Source: Craspedostauros australis
Lineage: Eukaryota > Bacillariophyta > Bacillariophyceae > Mastogloiales > Achnanthaceae
Length of the DNA: 64,000 nt
Direction: 5' to 3'
Assembly: GCA_026770025.1 (NCBI GenBank)
Contig: JAMXDE010000006.1
Coordinates: forward strand, 2,982,001-3,046,000
The notes below the pieces were generated by a model, which saw nothing but the letters and a program-made list of their open reading frames with translations, was not told the DNA's origin and searched no databases. Position 1 is the stretch's first letter; each line of letters opens with the position of its first letter. Below, in pieces: positions 12,184 to 62,750 of this stretch. A program made the translations under genes and the position numbers.

Positions 12184-15100
12184 ATGAGAGACTTCCCTCC
12201 GGGTCCTCGTACCAGTATTGGGAGGAGCATCCAAACCAAACCAGCCTCGGGCAAAGCTGCACCAACGCGGCGAGCCATGCCCAAGCTACCGCTGCATCCG
12301 GCTCTGCCGGCAACTCCGACACTTTCTGCAGCCAAAGCACCACCAAAGTCAAAGCCAACAGCAACAAGAGCAATAGGAACAACAAGAGCAACAGCAGGGC
12401 AATCAGTATCACCAGAACCACCCACGCTGCCCGTATCAACCTCGAAGGCTGGCATTGCCCCGAGATTGTTGTCGATGCTGGCGCCGCAAGCGGCGAAGCC
12501 GCTCGGTGCCCCCCCAAAAGCATCATCAACGGCAGTGCCAGTGGCAAAAGCATCAGCGATGATGGCAACGGCAGCATCAATAGGACTGACAATGTTATCG
12601 AAGAGCCAAACAGGATCAAACCCACTTCCTAATCCCAAATGTACGAGTAGTCAGGCGAGGCTGCAACTACCGCAAAAGTCAAAAGCCCCTCCAACAGCAC
12701 AAGCCAACACCACGGATCTGCGCAAGCCGCCTCCTTTGGCTGATCCTTCGGGCAATCCTTCCGCTCCCAAGCTTTCCGAAACAACACAGACAACAGCAAC
12801 AACAACAACAACAACAACAACAAAACCAGCAGCGAAGGCAAAAGCCAAAGCCAAAGGTCTGGCAAAAGCACAGGTCAAGTCCAAGGCAAAACCCACAGCA
12901 AAATCCAAAGTGAAAGGTCAGATAAAGGGCAAGGCAAAACGACAGGCCAAATCCAACGCAAAAAGGCAGGCGAAAGAGGCGAAAGAGAGTGAGAAAGGAC
13001 CGGCTAAGGGGCAGCAAGAGGGAGCAGCAAAAGGAAAGGAAACAGGACAGGAACAGACAACAGCAAAGTTACAGGACTCCAATTCAACGACATATGAGCC
13101 GGGAATTGGGGAAGCCGTGGCTGGGCCAGGCAAAAGAAATTGGGACAAGAGAATACCAAAGCTATCAGGACCTGCGATTGAGCCTGAGCCTCTTGACGTT
13201 CTGTTCGGGCGTGGCAAACCTTACCAGAAGCATCCAGGCAATTTCAAGCTTCACATGTACACCAACCGTTTCAAATCACAATACGTGAACTTCAAAGAGA
13301 CTGTCAGCGAAAAGAACAAGGCGGCATGCGCTGAACAAGCCGAAAAGAGCAAGGAAACACGCACCGAACAGACCGACACCGACACCGATACTGGGGACAC
13401 AAAGGGCTTCCATTCCAAACAGGCCATCGTCGACGAAATCATTCGTCTCGTAAGGGCGACTGGAGGACGCTTTTTGAAGTACAACGAAGAGGGGCAGATC
13501 TGGCAGGCGGTGACGAAGACAGAGGCAAGGATGAAGGTGGCGCATGTGCTCCGTGGCAAGCCTCGAAAGTTGCCTGACATCGACCCGATGTCTTTGGAAT
13601 CACCGTTTGTGAAGTCTTCCCGAGCAATCGCCATAACCAGAGACGCTGCCATACTTGACATGCAAAGGCGTATCACCAAGTCATCGCAACGAGAGAATGA
13701 GCATCCGCCAGTACCGGTAAACCCTGATCCAAATCAACTTCGTCGACCTCAGCCACAGCAAACCTCGTTCATATACCCAAACAGCAATCGCGGTGCAGCT
13801 GTGCGTGCTGGGCAACCTGTTCTTCAGAATAATATGGCCACACGAAGAACCTCCGGAGTCGCAACAACTGCACAACGACAAGAGACAGGACGGCAGCCTC
13901 TTGCAGCATCTATACGCGCTAGTGCACCTTTGGCGGCTGCTGGAACTCATGGTGCCCATGTTGCTCATGTTGCCCAACCTTCACCGTATCGCGCCCATCC
14001 ACAATCTCATCCACATGCACACCCGCTTCTGCAACCACATCCACATCCGCACTCGCATCCTCTTGTACAGCAACATCCGCATCATCATCTTCTACATCCG
14101 CACCCGCATCCTTACGCCGCCCACATTCCAAATGGTACAGTGGGACAGCCACACGCATACTACATAATGCAGCAGGCCAGGGCGCATCATCCAGTCGGTC
14201 AAGTGCCAGTACAGAACGTGGCTCGGTCATCCCATCGTCAGCCACAAGCCGCAGCCAGCCAGGTCGGGCAGAAAGTCAATCAATCCGAACCACGGAATGC
14301 AACACTGCATCCAACACACGTGGTGGCAAAAACAACGGCAGGAGCAGGAACGGGAAAAGGGATGGGAGTGTCATGTGCATCCGCAGGAAAGTTGACGGCA
14401 CAATCGGTCTCACCTGGCGCCCAGCGTTTTATGCACAATGCAAGCGCAAATGCGCATCAACACGCGCTCAGAACCAGCGCCCGACTTGCTCAACCATCTA
14501 CTTTCCCAACGGCAGCGGCGACGGCAACAGCGACTGCGCGCCCGGTCACTCGCGAAGTCAGACAGGAGGCCGAATCCTCGCCTGCGGTGCCTGTAGCGCG
14601 AGGAAGCGGCCAGCCACTGAAGGAGCCTGCCACTGGAACCGCGAGAGCACCAGCTTCGACTATGAGTGCCAGTGGACGAGCACAGCTAGAATCAGCAAAG
14701 ACATCAAACCAAGTCAAGGCTGGAAAAGCGGCCGTGCCTCCAGATGATCCATCGCAAGCTGAGCTTATCCATCGGAGTAGCACGAGCGCCCAGCCGCAGA
14801 GAAGAGCTGATGGTAACGATCGCCCGCAAACAGCAGTCGCAAGAGTGCCACCAACACTAGCCGCAACAACGGCAACTCCAGCAATGCCAAAAAGAACCTC
14901 ACCACCAACATCAGCATCCAAGGATGAAAGAGGAAGCTCGAGCTTGCTGCCTGCACCTGGAGCTGGAGGTGCTGGAAGTGCTGGAGCCGGAGCCAGCAAA
15001 CTCAGCAACGCTGCAAGCGGCACGATGGGTGTGCAAAGAGGCAGCGCTGTGAGCGCTCAGACCAGTTCTCGAACGGCCGCAACAGCGACAAATGCGACAA

Positions 15101-16047
15101 TTCCAGCGGCGCAATCATATGCCGCACGAGGCAAAGCAATAGCGCCACCAACGGCCATAATGCCACGAACTGCCACCGCGACACCGCCACTCCCACTAAT
15201 GCATCCCATGGGTATGCACCCAGGCGCCCTACCAGAGCATGCGCGCTACCTCCATCCCTCATATCCTCATGCTCCAATGCATCCTGGCATGTACAACCTG
15301 CCAGATGCGGCCGCTGGTGCTGCCATGTACGATCCTGTCTTGTTTCCTCATTTGCACAACCCCGCCATAGTAGCGGCTACGATCGACGCATTCCATCGCA
15401 GCCGTGAGCACGATGGCCATATCATCGCAGCGCTGCTCAAGGAACGGGACGAACTTATTGAGAAGCTTCGGGTAGCCGAAAGCCGGATTCCGGCGGCTAA
15501 TGCCACATCAAACGGATATGCCTTGTTGGACACCCAGGCAATGGGGGACACCGCACTCCCTGATGTCCCACCCAGCAGCGCCGCGGTCTTCCAGGGCGGG
15601 TACGAGAGTAGCAGCTCCCGAAGCTGCGATGGCGAAAGCGACAGAGAGGACGAAAGCAGCCGTGGTAGTCACAGCAGCAGCAACAGTAGTTGCAGCAGCA
15701 GTCGCAAAAGTAGTCACAGTTGGAGTAGTAGAAGCCGCAGCAGCAGTCTTGGCGTTCCTACAAATGGCGCAAACATGAAGCAAAGTGCTTCCGAAGATGG
15801 CAACGAAGCCAGCACAGGCACAAAGAGGACCATTGCGGATATTGGGACCATTGCCTGCCGCACCAGAGGCAAGCAACAAGCGAACGTGCATGGTGGCAAG
15901 AAGAGGCCTCGTGTCACGAAACAGAATGATGCGAGCGGCAGTGTCAGCAGAAATGGTAATGACAATGGGAGTGACGATGGGAGTGACGATGGCAATGGCA
16001 ATGACAATGGAGGTGAGACAATCGATGAAACAAACAGCAGTGAATGA
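12184..16047 (+). CDS. DUF6824-domain protein, 1287 aa, probable diatom nuclear regulator
   Basis: The signature is DVLFGRGKPYQKHPGN at about residue 336. It is followed by a conserved stretch to about 460 with SKQAIVDEIIRLVRATGGRF and RMKVAHVLRGKPRK. This is the DUF6824 domain, abundant in diatoms and of unknown biochemical role. Around it are low-complexity regions: Ala/Thr/Pro-rich (1-210), Lys/Ala-rich (~220-275), a His/Pro run (~610-660), long Ala/Thr/Ser/Gln-rich stretches, a possible short coiled coil with IIAALLKERDELIEKL (~1079), a Ser/Arg tract (~1140-1195) and Asn/Asp/Gly repeats at the end. Basic clusters such as KKRPR suggest nuclear location. The domain plus disordered flanks fits a regulatory or chromatin protein, but no direct DNA-binding evidence exists here. 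No intron is needed. ATG 12184 is the first in frame. The very uneven composition makes introns or an alternative start possible. Confidence 0.85.
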   Translation: MRDFPPGPRTSIGRSIQTKPASGKAAPTRRAMPKLPLHPALPATPTLSAAKAPPKSKPTATRAIGTTRATAGQSVSPEPPTLPVSTSKAGIAPRLLSMLAPQAAKPLGAPPKASSTAVPVAKASAMMATAASIGLTMLSKSQTGSNPLPNPKCTSSQARLQLPQKSKAPPTAQANTTDLRKPPPLADPSGNPSAPKLSETTQTTATTTTTTTTKPAAKAKAKAKGLAKAQVKSKAKPTAKSKVKGQIKGKAKRQAKSNAKRQAKEAKESEKGPAKGQQEGAAKGKETGQEQTTAKLQDSNSTTYEPGIGEAVAGPGKRNWDKRIPKLSGPAIEPEPLDVLFGRGKPYQKHPGNFKLHMYTNRFKSQYVNFKETVSEKNKAACAEQAEKSKETRTEQTDTDTDTGDTKGFHSKQAIVDEIIRLVRATGGRFLKYNEEGQIWQAVTKTEARMKVAHVLRGKPRKLPDIDPMSLESPFVKSSRAIAITRDAAILDMQRRITKSSQRENEHPPVPVNPDPNQLRRPQPQQTSFIYPNSNRGAAVRAGQPVLQNNMATRRTSGVATTAQRQETGRQPLAASIRASAPLAAAGTHGAHVAHVAQPSPYRAHPQSHPHAHPLLQPHPHPHSHPLVQQHPHHHLLHPHPHPYAAHIPNGTVGQPHAYYIMQQARAHHPVGQVPVQNVARSSHRQPQAAASQVGQKVNQSEPRNATLHPTHVVAKTTAGAGTGKGMGVSCASAGKLTAQSVSPGAQRFMHNASANAHQHALRTSARLAQPSTFPTAAATATATARPVTREVRQEAESSPAVPVARGSGQPLKEPATGTARAPASTMSASGRAQLESAKTSNQVKAGKAAVPPDDPSQAELIHRSSTSAQPQRRADGNDRPQTAVARVPPTLAATTATPAMPKRTSPPTSASKDERGSSSLLPAPGAGGAGSAGAGASKLSNAASGTMGVQRGSAVSAQTSSRTAATATNATIPAAQSYAARGKAIAPPTAIMPRTATATPPLPLMHPMGMHPGALPEHARYLHPSYPHAPMHPGMYNLPDAAAGAAMYDPVLFPHLHNPAIVAATIDAFHRSREHDGHIIAALLKERDELIEKLRVAESRIPAANATSNGYALLDTQAMGDTALPDVPPSSAAVFQGGYESSSSRSCDGESDREDESSRGSHSSSNSSCSSSRKSSHSWSSRSRSSSLGVPTNGANMKQSASEDGNEASTGTKRTIADIGTIACRTRGKQQANVHGGKKRPRVTKQNDASGSVSRNGNDNGSDDGSDDGNGNDNGGETIDETNSSE

Positions 16048-17095: not shown

Positions 17096-17734
17096 AGTGG
17101 TCTTGAATGTTGCCGTCATCAGTCACACCAGCAGGTGCACCCTCATCCTCCCACCTGTAATACGATCTACGATCTACTCGCACCACACCAAGACCCGATG
17201 CTTGGACTGCAGAGAAGGGAGTTGACACCAGCAGCATCGGTTGTGACCTTCGGTGCGGCCTTAACCGAAGCAGAGCTTTCGCAGCTGTCATCCACTGACT
17301 CGTATGGATCTTCCGAGACCGGAAAAAGGATCGCAATTGCGGAAGACCGATTGGCGCTGACTACACGGGCTGCCGATGGCATGGTGCAAACCAACGTGCG
17401 ACAGTGCAACGCGTCATGCGAGCCTCTCCCACCTGCTTGGCGCTAGCGACTTCACGGCCGCGTTCTGTCGCTGCGCTTCATGGAGGTCTCTGTGATTCCT
17501 GAGGAGTGCTGGGATGTTGGGCATCGTGCTGGTCGTGGCATTGGAAAGCACAGCCAACGCATCAACCTTGCTCGAGCGAACGATCAGCGCGATGGAGGCT
17601 TCATGCGACGCCCCAACTCATCAGAGCAGCCTCATCATGAAACAGAAACACCAGCAGCGCAGCTGGCTGCGCAAAGACTTGAACGATAAAGTGAAGCCTG
17701 GTGCTCTCCTCTACTCTGCTTCATACTCTGCTGC

Positions 17735-30869: not shown

Positions 30870-31531
30870 CTTGATGCTTCTTTTGGGAGCGAATGCAAAC
30901 GCAAATGCAACTGATCGTGTTGGTATGCATTGCTTAGTGTTGAACTATGATACGAGTATAGCTCGTACCTGCCATCAGCAAGAGGACTCTGTGCCTCCGT
31001 TCGTCTCTTCCTCATTGGTTTGTTCGCTTCTCCTCAGTGTTGCGATCCTCCGATCCACGCTCACGTTCGCAGATTGCGTGAGAAGCGCGAGACACGATTT
31101 CTGTGTGATTTCCACAATTTCGGTGGACGTCCTCAGTTGACATTAACTAAGTACCATGCAACAACCACGATTCGTAATAGTCGATTGAGTCAAAGAGTCA
31201 ATTCATCGAAACTCTTCCATTCTCTTCTTTGGATCACCATCGATGCGAAAAGAAGATGAGGCGCATGTTTCACACATTTCTGTCCCTCACTTTTTGTGTG
31301 GAAAATGCCGTTGTTGTTGCTTGTTGTTTGGCAGGAGTACACCAGGCCCAGCGCACCAACACACCAACACACCAACACACCAACAAAGCAACGCAGAAGC
31401 GAAGATGCAATCGTCAACTCCTCCTTCCTCTCACAATTCCAAACTCAAACAATATTCACAACCACAACAGCAAACAACAAGCAGCAAGCAACAAATCGCA
31501 AACGCAAGCAAAAACAGAAAAGGAAACAACC
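30870..31531. promoter_or_regulatory. 662-bp divergent promoter region
   Basis: It lies between the start codons of the THADA-like gene (minus) and the small heat shock gene (plus), so it should hold both promoters and leaders. TACGAGTA, the complement of TACTCGTA, is at 30951-30958. A short CAACACAC tandem array (about 31355-31386) and a CAA-rich stretch make up the probable leader of the heat shock gene. I found no perfect heat shock element; TTC/GAA triplets near 31202-31225 are wrongly spaced. Confidence 0.55.
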
Positions 31532-32239
31532 ATGATTTTCGTGATGCACCAACACCCATCCCATCCCTTCCTCCGTCCACACTCGCCTTGCATGAAGGGA
31601 GCTCAACCATGCTCCTCCCCATGCACATCCAAGATCGATGTCCCTTCCATCAAGATCACCGATGGCGGTAGTGGCAGTGACAGCGATGGCAACTTCGTCA
31701 TCGCTCTTGATGTTCCTGGATACCATTTGAACAACATCGACATCTCATTGAAGCCGGATGACCATGTGGATGCGATGGTGCTGGAGATCAAAGGAAAGCG
31801 AGACAACCGTGTGTACTCTGCATCATTCGAGAAGAGATTCCGCCTGCGTGATTCTCGATTGGACATGGAGAAGGTGGACGCCGAGCTGTTGGATGGGCTG
31901 TTGACCATCACGCTGCCAAAGAAGCATCCGGGCAAAGATGGCGGTCGTCGTGTCATCCCCATTCGCGATGGTGCCTCCAGCAGTACTCCGAGCAGCGTCA
32001 CAGGTGATGGCTTGGCTGTCGCCGAAGCCGAAACGGCAAGAGAGACGCAAGCGGGACAGCTACATTTGGCGGCACACACCGACACAACCAAGGTCGAAGT
32101 GGAAGATGTGAACGAAGATGTGAACAAAGAAGAAGCAGATGAGGAGGATGTTGTTGATCGTGCCACCAACATGGATGACGATCACACCAGCGACGACAAT
32201 GGTACTGATGATTCCGAATGGGAGAAGTTCGAAGCTTAG
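31532..32239 (+). CDS. Small heat shock protein (HSP20/alpha-crystallin), 235 aa, acidic tail
   Basis: This is an ATP-independent holdase that binds unfolding proteins. The frame is open from 31229, but the preceding Thr/His/Asn-rich part is read from the CA-rich leader. ATG 31532 (MIFVMHQHPS) is the likely start. The alpha-crystallin domain spans about residues 50-130. Its strands include GNFVIALDVPGY, VLEIKGKR and SASFEKRFRLRD, and it ends in the diagnostic DAELLDGLLTITLP. The oligomer-anchoring motif VIPI sits at 141-144. Unusually, the protein continues for about 90 residues. The last ~50 are strongly acidic (VEDVNEDVNKEEADEED, then DDSEWEKFEA), whereas most HSP20 proteins stop soon after the IxI motif. 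There is no targeting signal; the Cys/His/Pro-rich start is of unknown role. Confidence 0.88.
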   Translation: MIFVMHQHPSHPFLRPHSPCMKGAQPCSSPCTSKIDVPSIKITDGGSGSDSDGNFVIALDVPGYHLNNIDISLKPDDHVDAMVLEIKGKRDNRVYSASFEKRFRLRDSRLDMEKVDAELLDGLLTITLPKKHPGKDGGRRVIPIRDGASSSTPSSVTGDGLAVAEAETARETQAGQLHLAAHTDTTKVEVEDVNEDVNKEEADEEDVVDRATNMDDDHTSDDNGTDDSEWEKFEA

Positions 32240-59488: not shown

Positions 59489-60475
59489 TTGACTGCGATG
59501 AAGCGTGTCATTGCGCCGGAAAGTGATCCGTTCGACGCGAGCGGCGAAGACGATTACAGCTCCTACCTGCTGCAGCAGCTGTCCGCCGAAGAGTCCGTAT
59601 TCGGCACCATCGCCGGCAGCAAGCACAAAGGCATTGCGCCGCCCATCGACGACGACAAGTTGGATGACAATCAACGAACCGTCGAACAACAACAGCAACC
59701 GAACGAGCAGAAAGAGGAACAGCCCGAGGCGGACGGCGACGCATCCTTGCGACAACAGGACAGCGACGCATCGTTGGTGGCGCTGAGCAGCAAGAGGCAC
59801 GCCAGACGGAGGAGGCGGGCACGCAGAGGCAGAAGGGCCCGCAGCGGCGACAAGACCGGAAAGACCGTGACGTTGGTGAAGCTGGTGCCGGAGAGCGAGA
59901 CAGCCGAAGAGGAGAAACCGGTCGCGGAGCAAGTGCAGCGGCGCGACGATCTGGAGGATACCAAAGTCGTCGATCTCAATCGCCATCCGAAGACCGGGTA
60001 CGTGAAGCTGAAGGAGCCGGCCGCCGCCGACATCGCCATCAATATTGGACACGAAGAAGAAGAGGAGAAGCCGCAGAAGGTCGACGAGCCCGCACGCAAC
60101 AGCAGGAAGGCGCGCGACGACACGACGCAGGTCACCGAAGAGAAGACCATGGACGAGGATTTCAGCGTGTCGACGATGCGGACGTACGGCACGTATGGGA
60201 CCTACGGAACCTTGCGCACCGCCGGACTGGATGAGGACCAGACCGTGCTGCTGGAGGAGATGATGAAGGAAAAGAAACGGAGGAACAAGGGCGCCGGCGT
60301 GCTGGCGAGGGCCTCATCGTGCGTGCAGGATCTCAAGGAGGAGATCACGGGGACGTACCAGGATACCGTGGCGAGCATGTCGCAAGTGTGCTGCGCCTTC
60401 ACGCTGACGGATAAGGATCTGCGCGTGGTGTCGGGGCACATCCGTCGTTCGCGACGCGAATTCTCGAAAGTGTGA
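59489..60475 (+). CDS. Charged protein ending in a DTV-SM-QV-AFTLTD module, 328 aa
   Basis: The first ~260 residues are mostly charged and disordered: acidic patches, a Gln run, a very basic cluster (KRHARRRRRARRGRRARSG, ~100-118), then Glu/Lys-rich sequence and a YGT repeat (~225). The last ~60 residues are ordered, with LARASSCVQDLKEEITGTYQ, then DTVASMSQVCCAFTLTDKDL and HIRRSRREF at the end. The same module closes the convergent neighbour at 61254-62750. The basic cluster could target the nucleus or bind nucleic acid. ATG 59489 has another methionine at codon 4. No function can be assigned. Confidence 0.75.
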   Translation: MTAMKRVIAPESDPFDASGEDDYSSYLLQQLSAEESVFGTIAGSKHKGIAPPIDDDKLDDNQRTVEQQQQPNEQKEEQPEADGDASLRQQDSDASLVALSSKRHARRRRRARRGRRARSGDKTGKTVTLVKLVPESETAEEEKPVAEQVQRRDDLEDTKVVDLNRHPKTGYVKLKEPAAADIAINIGHEEEEEKPQKVDEPARNSRKARDDTTQVTEEKTMDEDFSVSTMRTYGTYGTYGTLRTAGLDEDQTVLLEEMMKEKKRRNKGAGVLARASSCVQDLKEEITGTYQDTVASMSQVCCAFTLTDKDLRVVSGHIRRSRREFSKV

Positions 60476-61253
60476 GACAACGAGCGATGGGCTCTTGAGA
60501 GAAGCAACGAGATGAGAAAGGGAAAAGCAAGCGATATGATGTGATATGATACGATATGGCATGGTATTGTATTGCACATATGTGCATCCTGGTACCCATG
60601 GAGAAAGGCCATGGAGGAGCAAGAGAAAGGAGTGAGCTTTCGCGTACGCATAGGAGGTGCTACAGCATGTTGTGATAATAATGAATGTGGATGATCGACA
60701 TGAGGCAATAGAAACAGTAAAAGCAAAGATGGTTGGAAGACAACGAACAGGGAATTATATTATACAAGAGTGCTCCACTCTAATATCCCAGCTGGTTGGA
60801 ACGTGAATTGTTGTCGCCACACGATTGGCGAGTGCTTGGTTGTCTCATTATTTGCAGTGCTCTATGGTACTGTCCGTCACTACGTACACGCTCAATGTTG
60901 TGGTGGTTCAAGTAGAGCGCGACAGCACGGGCAACGGTGATGTGGAACTAATGTATTAGGTATGTATGCCATGCTTCCTTTTCACATGGAATGTTCATAC
61001 GGTACTATTATTATACATACTTTCATTCATAGTATAGATCGTTCTCGTGCTGTTGTATTTTTCTCTGCGTCTGTCTGTCTATCTGTAGCACTATCATTAT
61101 ATAATACCACACATGTAAGTACTTGGCTATCGTTGCGCATGCAGGACGTAATGAATCACAACACATTCCAGTCCAGTCCGTATACCAATAGAGTGAAGTG
61201 CCCCGCTCAGTGTCCAGCTCAGTGTCCAGCTGAGTACCCTCCTCTAATACGAG
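60476..61253. other. Intergenic, 778 bp, between convergent related genes
   Basis: It holds both 3' ends. A small tandem repeat (GCTCAGTGTCCA, about 2.5 units) lies at about 61204-61235. No gene seen. Confidence 0.7.
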
Positions 61254-62750
61254 CTACGCATCGAAATGCGTCTTGGCTCTGTCGATCTTCTTGGTGACGG
61301 CCCGGATGTCGTGGTCCGTGAGGGTGAAGGCGTTGAATACCTGATCCATGCTGACGACGGTATCTTCGAAGGCGCCCGAGACCTCCTCCCCGATCTTGCG
61401 GATGAAGCGGGCCCCCGAGGCGCAGTTGAGGATGGAGCCAGCGCCCGCGGGGTCCTCCTGTTCGTACGCGGCTGTGAGGACGGTGGCCGTGCCGTCATCG
61501 TCGAAGGTCGCCGTGTCGTTGGCCGTGCTGCTGACCGTGCGGTCGTTGTCCGTGTCGGTCTCTTCACCGGAGGGCAGGGTGTCAGGAGTGTAGGTGGTGG
61601 TGCCGGAGCGCTTCTTGGAAGGCTTTTCCTTGGAGGACTTGTCCTTGGATTTTGACTTGATGCCGAGGAATCCCCTATCGTTGCGGCTCTTGGTGAGGTT
61701 CTTGAAGAAGCCCCTGCTCTTGCGCTTGTTCTTTCGTGGCGAGCCCTCGCCCTCGTTGTCCGCCTCCTCGTCCGTCATGCTTTCCGTGGTCTGGGTGTCC
61801 TTTGAGTTGGTGCTGAGCGATGGATCGTGGGGTTTGGTGGCTGGAGATTTTGGAGTGGAGCTGGGCCGGTTTTCCGTCACACGGATGATGGGTGAACCGG
61901 CCGGAGAGCGGGGCGTGGAAGCAGCCGGAGACACAGTCGAAGAGGCACGGGTGGTTCTGCTGGGCGTGCGATGCGGGTTGGCGTCGAAGGTGGCGTCGCC
62001 GATGCTCTGGAGAGCCATTGTGGCCGAGGCTGTGGCAGCTGTGGTTGCGCTGTGATCAAGGCTGACGTCGTTGGGATTGGTGCTGCCGCTGGTGGTGCTG
62101 GTAGTATGGCTGGTATGGCTCGTGTTGAGAGCCTTTGAGGCTGATTTGTGACGAGATCTCCGCCTGGCAGAGTTGACGGCTTTGGTCGCTTTGGGTGATC
62201 TGGACTTGGACGTTGGCGTTGCGGTGGACGCCCTCGTTGGTGAAGCCGCACCTGAGGACGCAGCAGCCGCAGCAGGCGAAGACTCAGCAGGTGGAGCCTC
62301 CATGGGTGAAGCAGACTTGGGCAGGGGCTGCATGCCATCCAGCTGGCCCCTGTAGGCTCTGCGACGATTGAGCAACCTCTGCTGCCGCTGAGCATCGTAC
62401 TGCGCCCGCTGCGGCGGATCTGCCAGCACCCTGACAGCCAGCACGACCGCATCCAGCCTCTGCTCCGTGGTGGTGCGCTGGGCATCGACAACATCCTCGC
62501 TGGTCTGCGAAGTGTCGTTGCCCAGGTCCGCCAGGATGCCAAAGAGCTCGCTCCTGCGCTCGAAGTACGCCAGCTGGATCTGCTCGGGCGTTGCCGCCAC
62601 AGAAACGCGCAGCACGTCGCTGTACAGATCAGCGAAGTCGCCGAACGCGCGGTCGATCAATCCGAGGTCTTGCAAGTCCATTGTCTCTGCTGTTGTCGTT
62701 GCTGCTGCTGCTGATGGCTGGTGCAGTGAGGGTGCTGTCGCTGAAGCCAT
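61254..62750 (-). CDS. J-like domain protein with the shared C-terminal module, 498 aa
   Basis: Residues ~35-125 look like a degenerate J domain: DLYSDVLRVSVAATPEQIQL, AYFERRSELFGIL, then VVLAVRVLADPPQRAQYDAQ. The HPD tripeptide that J proteins need to stimulate HSP70 ATPase is absent (ERR stands near that place), so it is probably a J-like scaffold, not a working co-chaperone. The middle is Ser/Thr/Pro/Ala-rich. A basic section follows (KNKRKSRGFFKNLTKSRNDR, ~330), then an acidic, Thr-rich one. The last 60 residues (RFIRKIGEEVSGAFEDTVVS, then MDQVFNAFTLTDHDIRAV) match the end of the convergent gene. A short upstream exon is possible (see findings). Confidence 0.78.
   Translation of the reverse strand: MASATAPSLHQPSAAAATTTAETMDLQDLGLIDRAFGDFADLYSDVLRVSVAATPEQIQLAYFERRSELFGILADLGNDTSQTSEDVVDAQRTTTEQRLDAVVLAVRVLADPPQRAQYDAQRQQRLLNRRRAYRGQLDGMQPLPKSASPMEAPPAESSPAAAAASSGAASPTRASTATPTSKSRSPKATKAVNSARRRSRHKSASKALNTSHTSHTTSTTSGSTNPNDVSLDHSATTAATASATMALQSIGDATFDANPHRTPSRTTRASSTVSPAASTPRSPAGSPIIRVTENRPSSTPKSPATKPHDPSLSTNSKDTQTTESMTDEEADNEGEGSPRKNKRKSRGFFKNLTKSRNDRGFLGIKSKSKDKSSKEKPSKKRSGTTTYTPDTLPSGEETDTDNDRTVSSTANDTATFDDDGTATVLTAAYEQEDPAGAGSILNCASGARFIRKIGEEVSGAFEDTVVSMDQVFNAFTLTDHDIRAVTKKIDRAKTHFDA

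Follow-up and report, generated by a model that had tools for sequence, protein, structure and literature searches.

Two neighbouring open reading frames of the window, the 64,000-nucleotide stretch of DNA analysed here, probably from a single-celled alga, converge on one another and encode proteins, P1 and P2, that look unrelated over most of their length and yet end alike. This arrangement raises the question of whether the common ending reflects shared descent and, if it does, whether it arose where it now lies or was acquired separately by each gene. An earlier sequence-only reading of the locus had left open two origins, namely a tail-to-tail duplication followed by divergence of the N-terminal parts, or repeated use of a short interaction module in otherwise different proteins.

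Two convergent genes with homologous C-termini

The stop codons of the two intact frames are 778 bases apart (Table 1). The description of one product as highly charged is right for residues 1-245 of P1, which consist of 37% K, R, D and E, a composition from which this N-terminal part is probably disordered; for P1 no Pfam match is listed at E<=10. Between its J-like domain and its tail, P2 is rich in Ser, Thr, Asn and Gln and poor in hydrophobic residues.

Table 1. Positions of the genes, domains and repeats discussed in the text; coordinates are those of the window except in the last row.
Feature	Position	Strand	Description
P1	59498-60475	+	intact ORF, 325 aa/codons; charged, probably disordered N-terminal part and shared C-terminal tail
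P2	61254-62750	-	intact ORF, 498 aa/codons; J-like domain, Ser/Thr/Ala-rich middle, shared C-terminal tail
Shared tail in P1, last 60 residues	60293-60472	+	from alignments and controls
Shared tail in P2, last 63 residues	61257-61445	-	from alignments and controls
HPD-less J-like domain of P2, residues 22-140	62331-62687	-	from a profile with the C5 paralogue, compared with the PDB
Inverted repeat, left arm	60337-60411		75 nt, inside the P1 tail
Inverted repeat, right arm	61315-61389		75 nt, inside the P2 tail
C5 paralogue, ORF of 796 aa	L007:4444-6834 (G000:C5:1200243-1202633)		J-like domain, then long disordered-type middle

When the tails are aligned over 58 C-terminal residues, 26 are identical, and these include every element of the pattern first noticed by eye (DTV, SM, QV, AFTLTD, D, R, V, I, R, F), at matching spacing. 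Aligned locally, the 70 C-terminal residues of the two proteins give a score of 120, whereas 5000 shuffles average 22.1 (s.d. 4.3) and never exceed 47, and BLASTP of full P1 against full P2 returns 58.2 bits with 31 of 84 columns identical (E 1e-13, the value for one single pairwise comparison). The concern that the tails might match each other no better than random helical C-termini is not borne out by the controls, which were taken from 84 ORFs of at least 200 aa in the rest of the window, in 20 fixed 10-kb stretches and in loci L007 and L016. None of the 84 control C-termini exceeds 47 with P1 or 38 with P2, and for the 414 helix-prone 70-aa stretches of the same ORFs the highest scores are 38 and 57, respectively. 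A scan of all frames of the control sources finds, at a score of at least 50, the two tails and a single frame in L028 (57), presumably belonging to a Copia-type retrotransposon, and nothing more. Among the 3486 control pairs the top three reach 356, 114 and 110, and the C-termini behind them look retrotransposon-like; the next pairs score 68 and 59. Taken with the shuffles and the BLASTP value, the 84 C-termini and 414 helix-prone stretches speak against chance or convergence of helical C-termini as the source of the likeness, leaving it a negligible probability, and by these alignments the C-terminal ~58 residues of P1 and P2 are homologous.

The detectable similarity is confined to this end of the proteins, as the sequence-only reading had maintained. 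For the 63 residues that precede the final 62 the resemblance is not significant, 162 of 2000 shuffles scoring as well, and the same holds for the parts ahead of the final 89 and 87 residues, where 777 of 1000 shuffles do so. Alignments do reach past the 58 residues, to 84 columns in BLASTP and to P1 residues 201-323 in the genome search, and from the BLASTP columns the shared segment may be slightly longer.

At the nucleotide level, the tails agree at 32, 41 and 24 of 58 first, second and third codon positions, as expected of coding conservation. Fourteen of the 26 identical residues share a codon, close to the 12.2 predicted when the codon usage of each gene is taken into account; thus the synonymous sites look saturated, and the event that produced the two tails would be old. 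The two tails also contain an inverted repeat of 75 nt, 72% complementary, by far the longest among the 20 inverted pairs listed, for which the protein similarity of the tails alone could suffice as an explanation.

Local duplication or a reused module

Where else the tail occurs bears directly on its origin. The assembly, 74.8 Mb in 90 contigs, was searched with four queries, each a single sequence: the tail of P2, that of P1, the complete P1 protein and a blend made by hand. These queries matched the two tails, about 0.8 kb apart and inverted, and no third copy with E below 2, although divergent third copies may escape a search that uses single proteins and scores only the best candidates. 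Matches on contigs C13 and C16, equal in score and frame length (E 2.06), were taken as chance; the C13 locus reads as a polyprotein that we take to be of Copia type. Full P1 gave a weak match on C2 (E 6.83). In the window, positions 17532-17621 (E 0.34) were rejected as a tail copy, there being no tail in the two overlapping translated stretches, and further weak matches lie at E 0.36-0.86.

Since the only two copies found are adjacent and inverted, a local tail-to-tail duplication is favoured over a widely reused module, and this adjacency is the main argument for it. The tails are homologous, neighbouring and opposite in orientation, as a local inverted duplication would leave them, for the tail only, and the 75-nt inverted repeat points the same way, so that the first of the two proposed origins gains support. 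The second, a tail that serves as a mobile interaction module of several diatom proteins and whose two bearers are neighbours here by chance or co-regulation, would account for the lack of anything detectable in common before the P1 and P2 tails. It is nonetheless unlikely: within this genome it finds no support, given the missing third copy (very divergent ones aside) and a J-like paralogue of P2 on contig C5 without a demonstrable tail, and it would presumably be a rare coincidence for the sole two copies found to lie side by side.

The account that we consider probable is therefore that of an old local inverted duplication that gave rise to two convergent genes, with the tail as the shared helical anchor of mostly disordered, fast-evolving products. 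The tail would be the sole part of the two products under common constraint, imposed most likely by binding of the same partner or of each other, and would form a small helical element of roughly two helices, N-capped at TLTD, that stays fixed while the rest of each protein evolves fast. P1 would have lost the J-like domain or never received it.

The J-like domain of P2 and its paralogue

The assignment of a J-like domain to P2, made originally from the letters alone, holds up in profile comparisons. A single clear paralogue of the domain occurs in the genome; it lies on contig C5 and aligns with the P2 domain at a score of 122 (0 of 3000 shuffles as good), and a two-sequence profile of P2 and the C5 protein reaches J domains in the PDB, the best being Ydj1 (E 5.4e-5). 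The Ydj1 match consists of two separate stretches flanking the HPD region, and the spacer between the matched halves is longer in P2, 32 profile positions against 15 residues in Ydj1. The HPD motif itself is absent from P1, P2 and the C5 paralogue. Against the Pfam DnaJ family (PF00226), P2 scores 15.1 bits and the C5 paralogue 20 bits, both under the cut-off of 27.8, and neither place is among the 72 matches listed in a DnaJ search of the genome. The best structural model of the domain is all-helical with a pLDDT of 90 (one of the five models has 56). Foldseek finds no match to it at E<=0.001, and the best 50 of 310 matches (best E 0.49) include no J domain, so that the J-like assignment rests on sequence, on which basis the N-terminal domain of P2 is J-like without HPD. 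Such a domain would probably act as a binding scaffold and not as an Hsp70 activator.

Pam16/Tim16 lacks the HPD motif as well. P2 differs from proteins of the Pam16/Tim16 type in its long Ser/Thr-rich middle and orphan tail, and nothing in its sequence points to a mitochondrial role. Among known proteins, J-like J-domain proteins such as Pam16/Tim16 (PMC3806816) come closest to P2, in which a region similar in sequence to J domains lacks HPD.

The C5 paralogue also bears on the origin of the pair. The order of its parts is similar to that of P2, with a J-like N-terminal region, a long disordered-type middle and a short hydrophobic C-terminal stretch, and this order, together with the homology of the J-like domains, would fit a duplication of a whole gene for a J-like plus tail protein, P1 having lost its J-like domain and the C5 protein being an older member of the family. 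The C5 C-terminus, however, has no demonstrable match to the tail, 114 of 3000 shuffles being as good against P2 and 2586 of 3000 against P1, and the first 245 residues of P1 show no detectable match to the J-like domain, their score being equalled by 1103 of 3000 shuffles. We accordingly give whole-gene duplication only a minor share of the probability, somewhat above that of a mobile module. No J-like remnant is found near P1; in the window, the P2 and C5 J-like queries match only the P2 domain at E below 0.4.

Other matches to the C5 protein are weak. Its J-like query gives matches on C3 (E 1.82 and 2.8), which fall on what is, by its score, an ordinary DnaJ domain (C3:1861772-1861948). Its C-terminus gives a weak match at G000:C4:1226880-1227062 (L015, L016; E 0.007), which covers the end of a long frame whose product resembles a helical-repeat protein; the C5 and C4 C-termini score 59 among the control pairs. 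The ORF adjoining the C5 paralogue (L007:7171-9585, minus strand) has near its start the motif CGRGGGTNNHIGN, presumably the one known from DUF6824 proteins.

Nature of the tail and its setting

The tail is an orphan, with no convincing relative in the Pfam, PDB, viral or prokaryote collections as searched by profile and pattern. Pfam lists nothing for it at E<=10. The tail alignment gave 96 pattern matches in viral and 124 in prokaryote contigs, and the J-like alignment 45 and 42, with no confirmed relatives in any of these sets; such scans depend on short patterns, drawn from two sequences, being matched exactly and hence have a small reach. The lack of a confirmed viral or prokaryote relative of either tail or J-like domain is as expected for an algal gene. 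A search of the literature turned up no title on this gene pair among the papers listed.

A profile of the two tails did match four annexin sequences in the PDB (best E 0.057), three of them shown in full, with each stretch alone at E above 5. The annexin-like region covers window positions 61257-61517 in P2 and 60206-60472 in P1; the tail stretch around DLKEEITG weakly resembles annexin repeats (PF00191), and the DED-to-TG spacing in P1, counted by eye, is one that we assume to be a feature of such repeats. The resemblance extends to a single copy, whereas annexins have four annexin repeats with calcium sites, which P1 and P2 do not; nor is an annexin among the Pfam matches of either protein at E<=10. 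With the individual stretches at E above 5 and no Pfam annexin, the resemblance is probably chance.

The predicted structure of the tail is poor, with a pLDDT of 49 and a pTM of 0.25. Its last helix is amphipathic in both proteins, with a moment of 0.46-0.61 in the last windows, and the moment of the first helix reaches 0.67 in P2 and 0.38 in P1, so that this helix is weakly amphipathic in P1. The tail may be a helical anchor or docking element, although the poor model and the weak first helix of P1 count against such a role. A bolder proposal makes it a new small pairing domain that joins P2, as a J-like scaffold lacking HPD, to P1, as its charged and disordered partner, in a dedicated complex encoded by convergent neighbours; we regard this as a long shot.

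Should the tail turn out to be a conserved domain, two orphan algal proteins would become more approachable, and the pair would be a clear example of inverted duplicates that keep only a short C-terminal element. As it stands, the pair looks like one more old local inverted pair with an orphan tail, real but modest and mostly ordinary.

A domain scan of eight other ORFs of the window found THADA/Trm732, HSP20, U-box, flavin monooxygenase-like and DUF6824 domains in some and no match in three, and from these domains the genome was taken as eukaryotic. The DUF6824 domain (E 3.4e-16), which we take as a pointer to a diatom, belongs to an ORF at window positions 12184-16047. The ORF with the HSP20 domain, at 31256-32239, has an acidic C-terminus.
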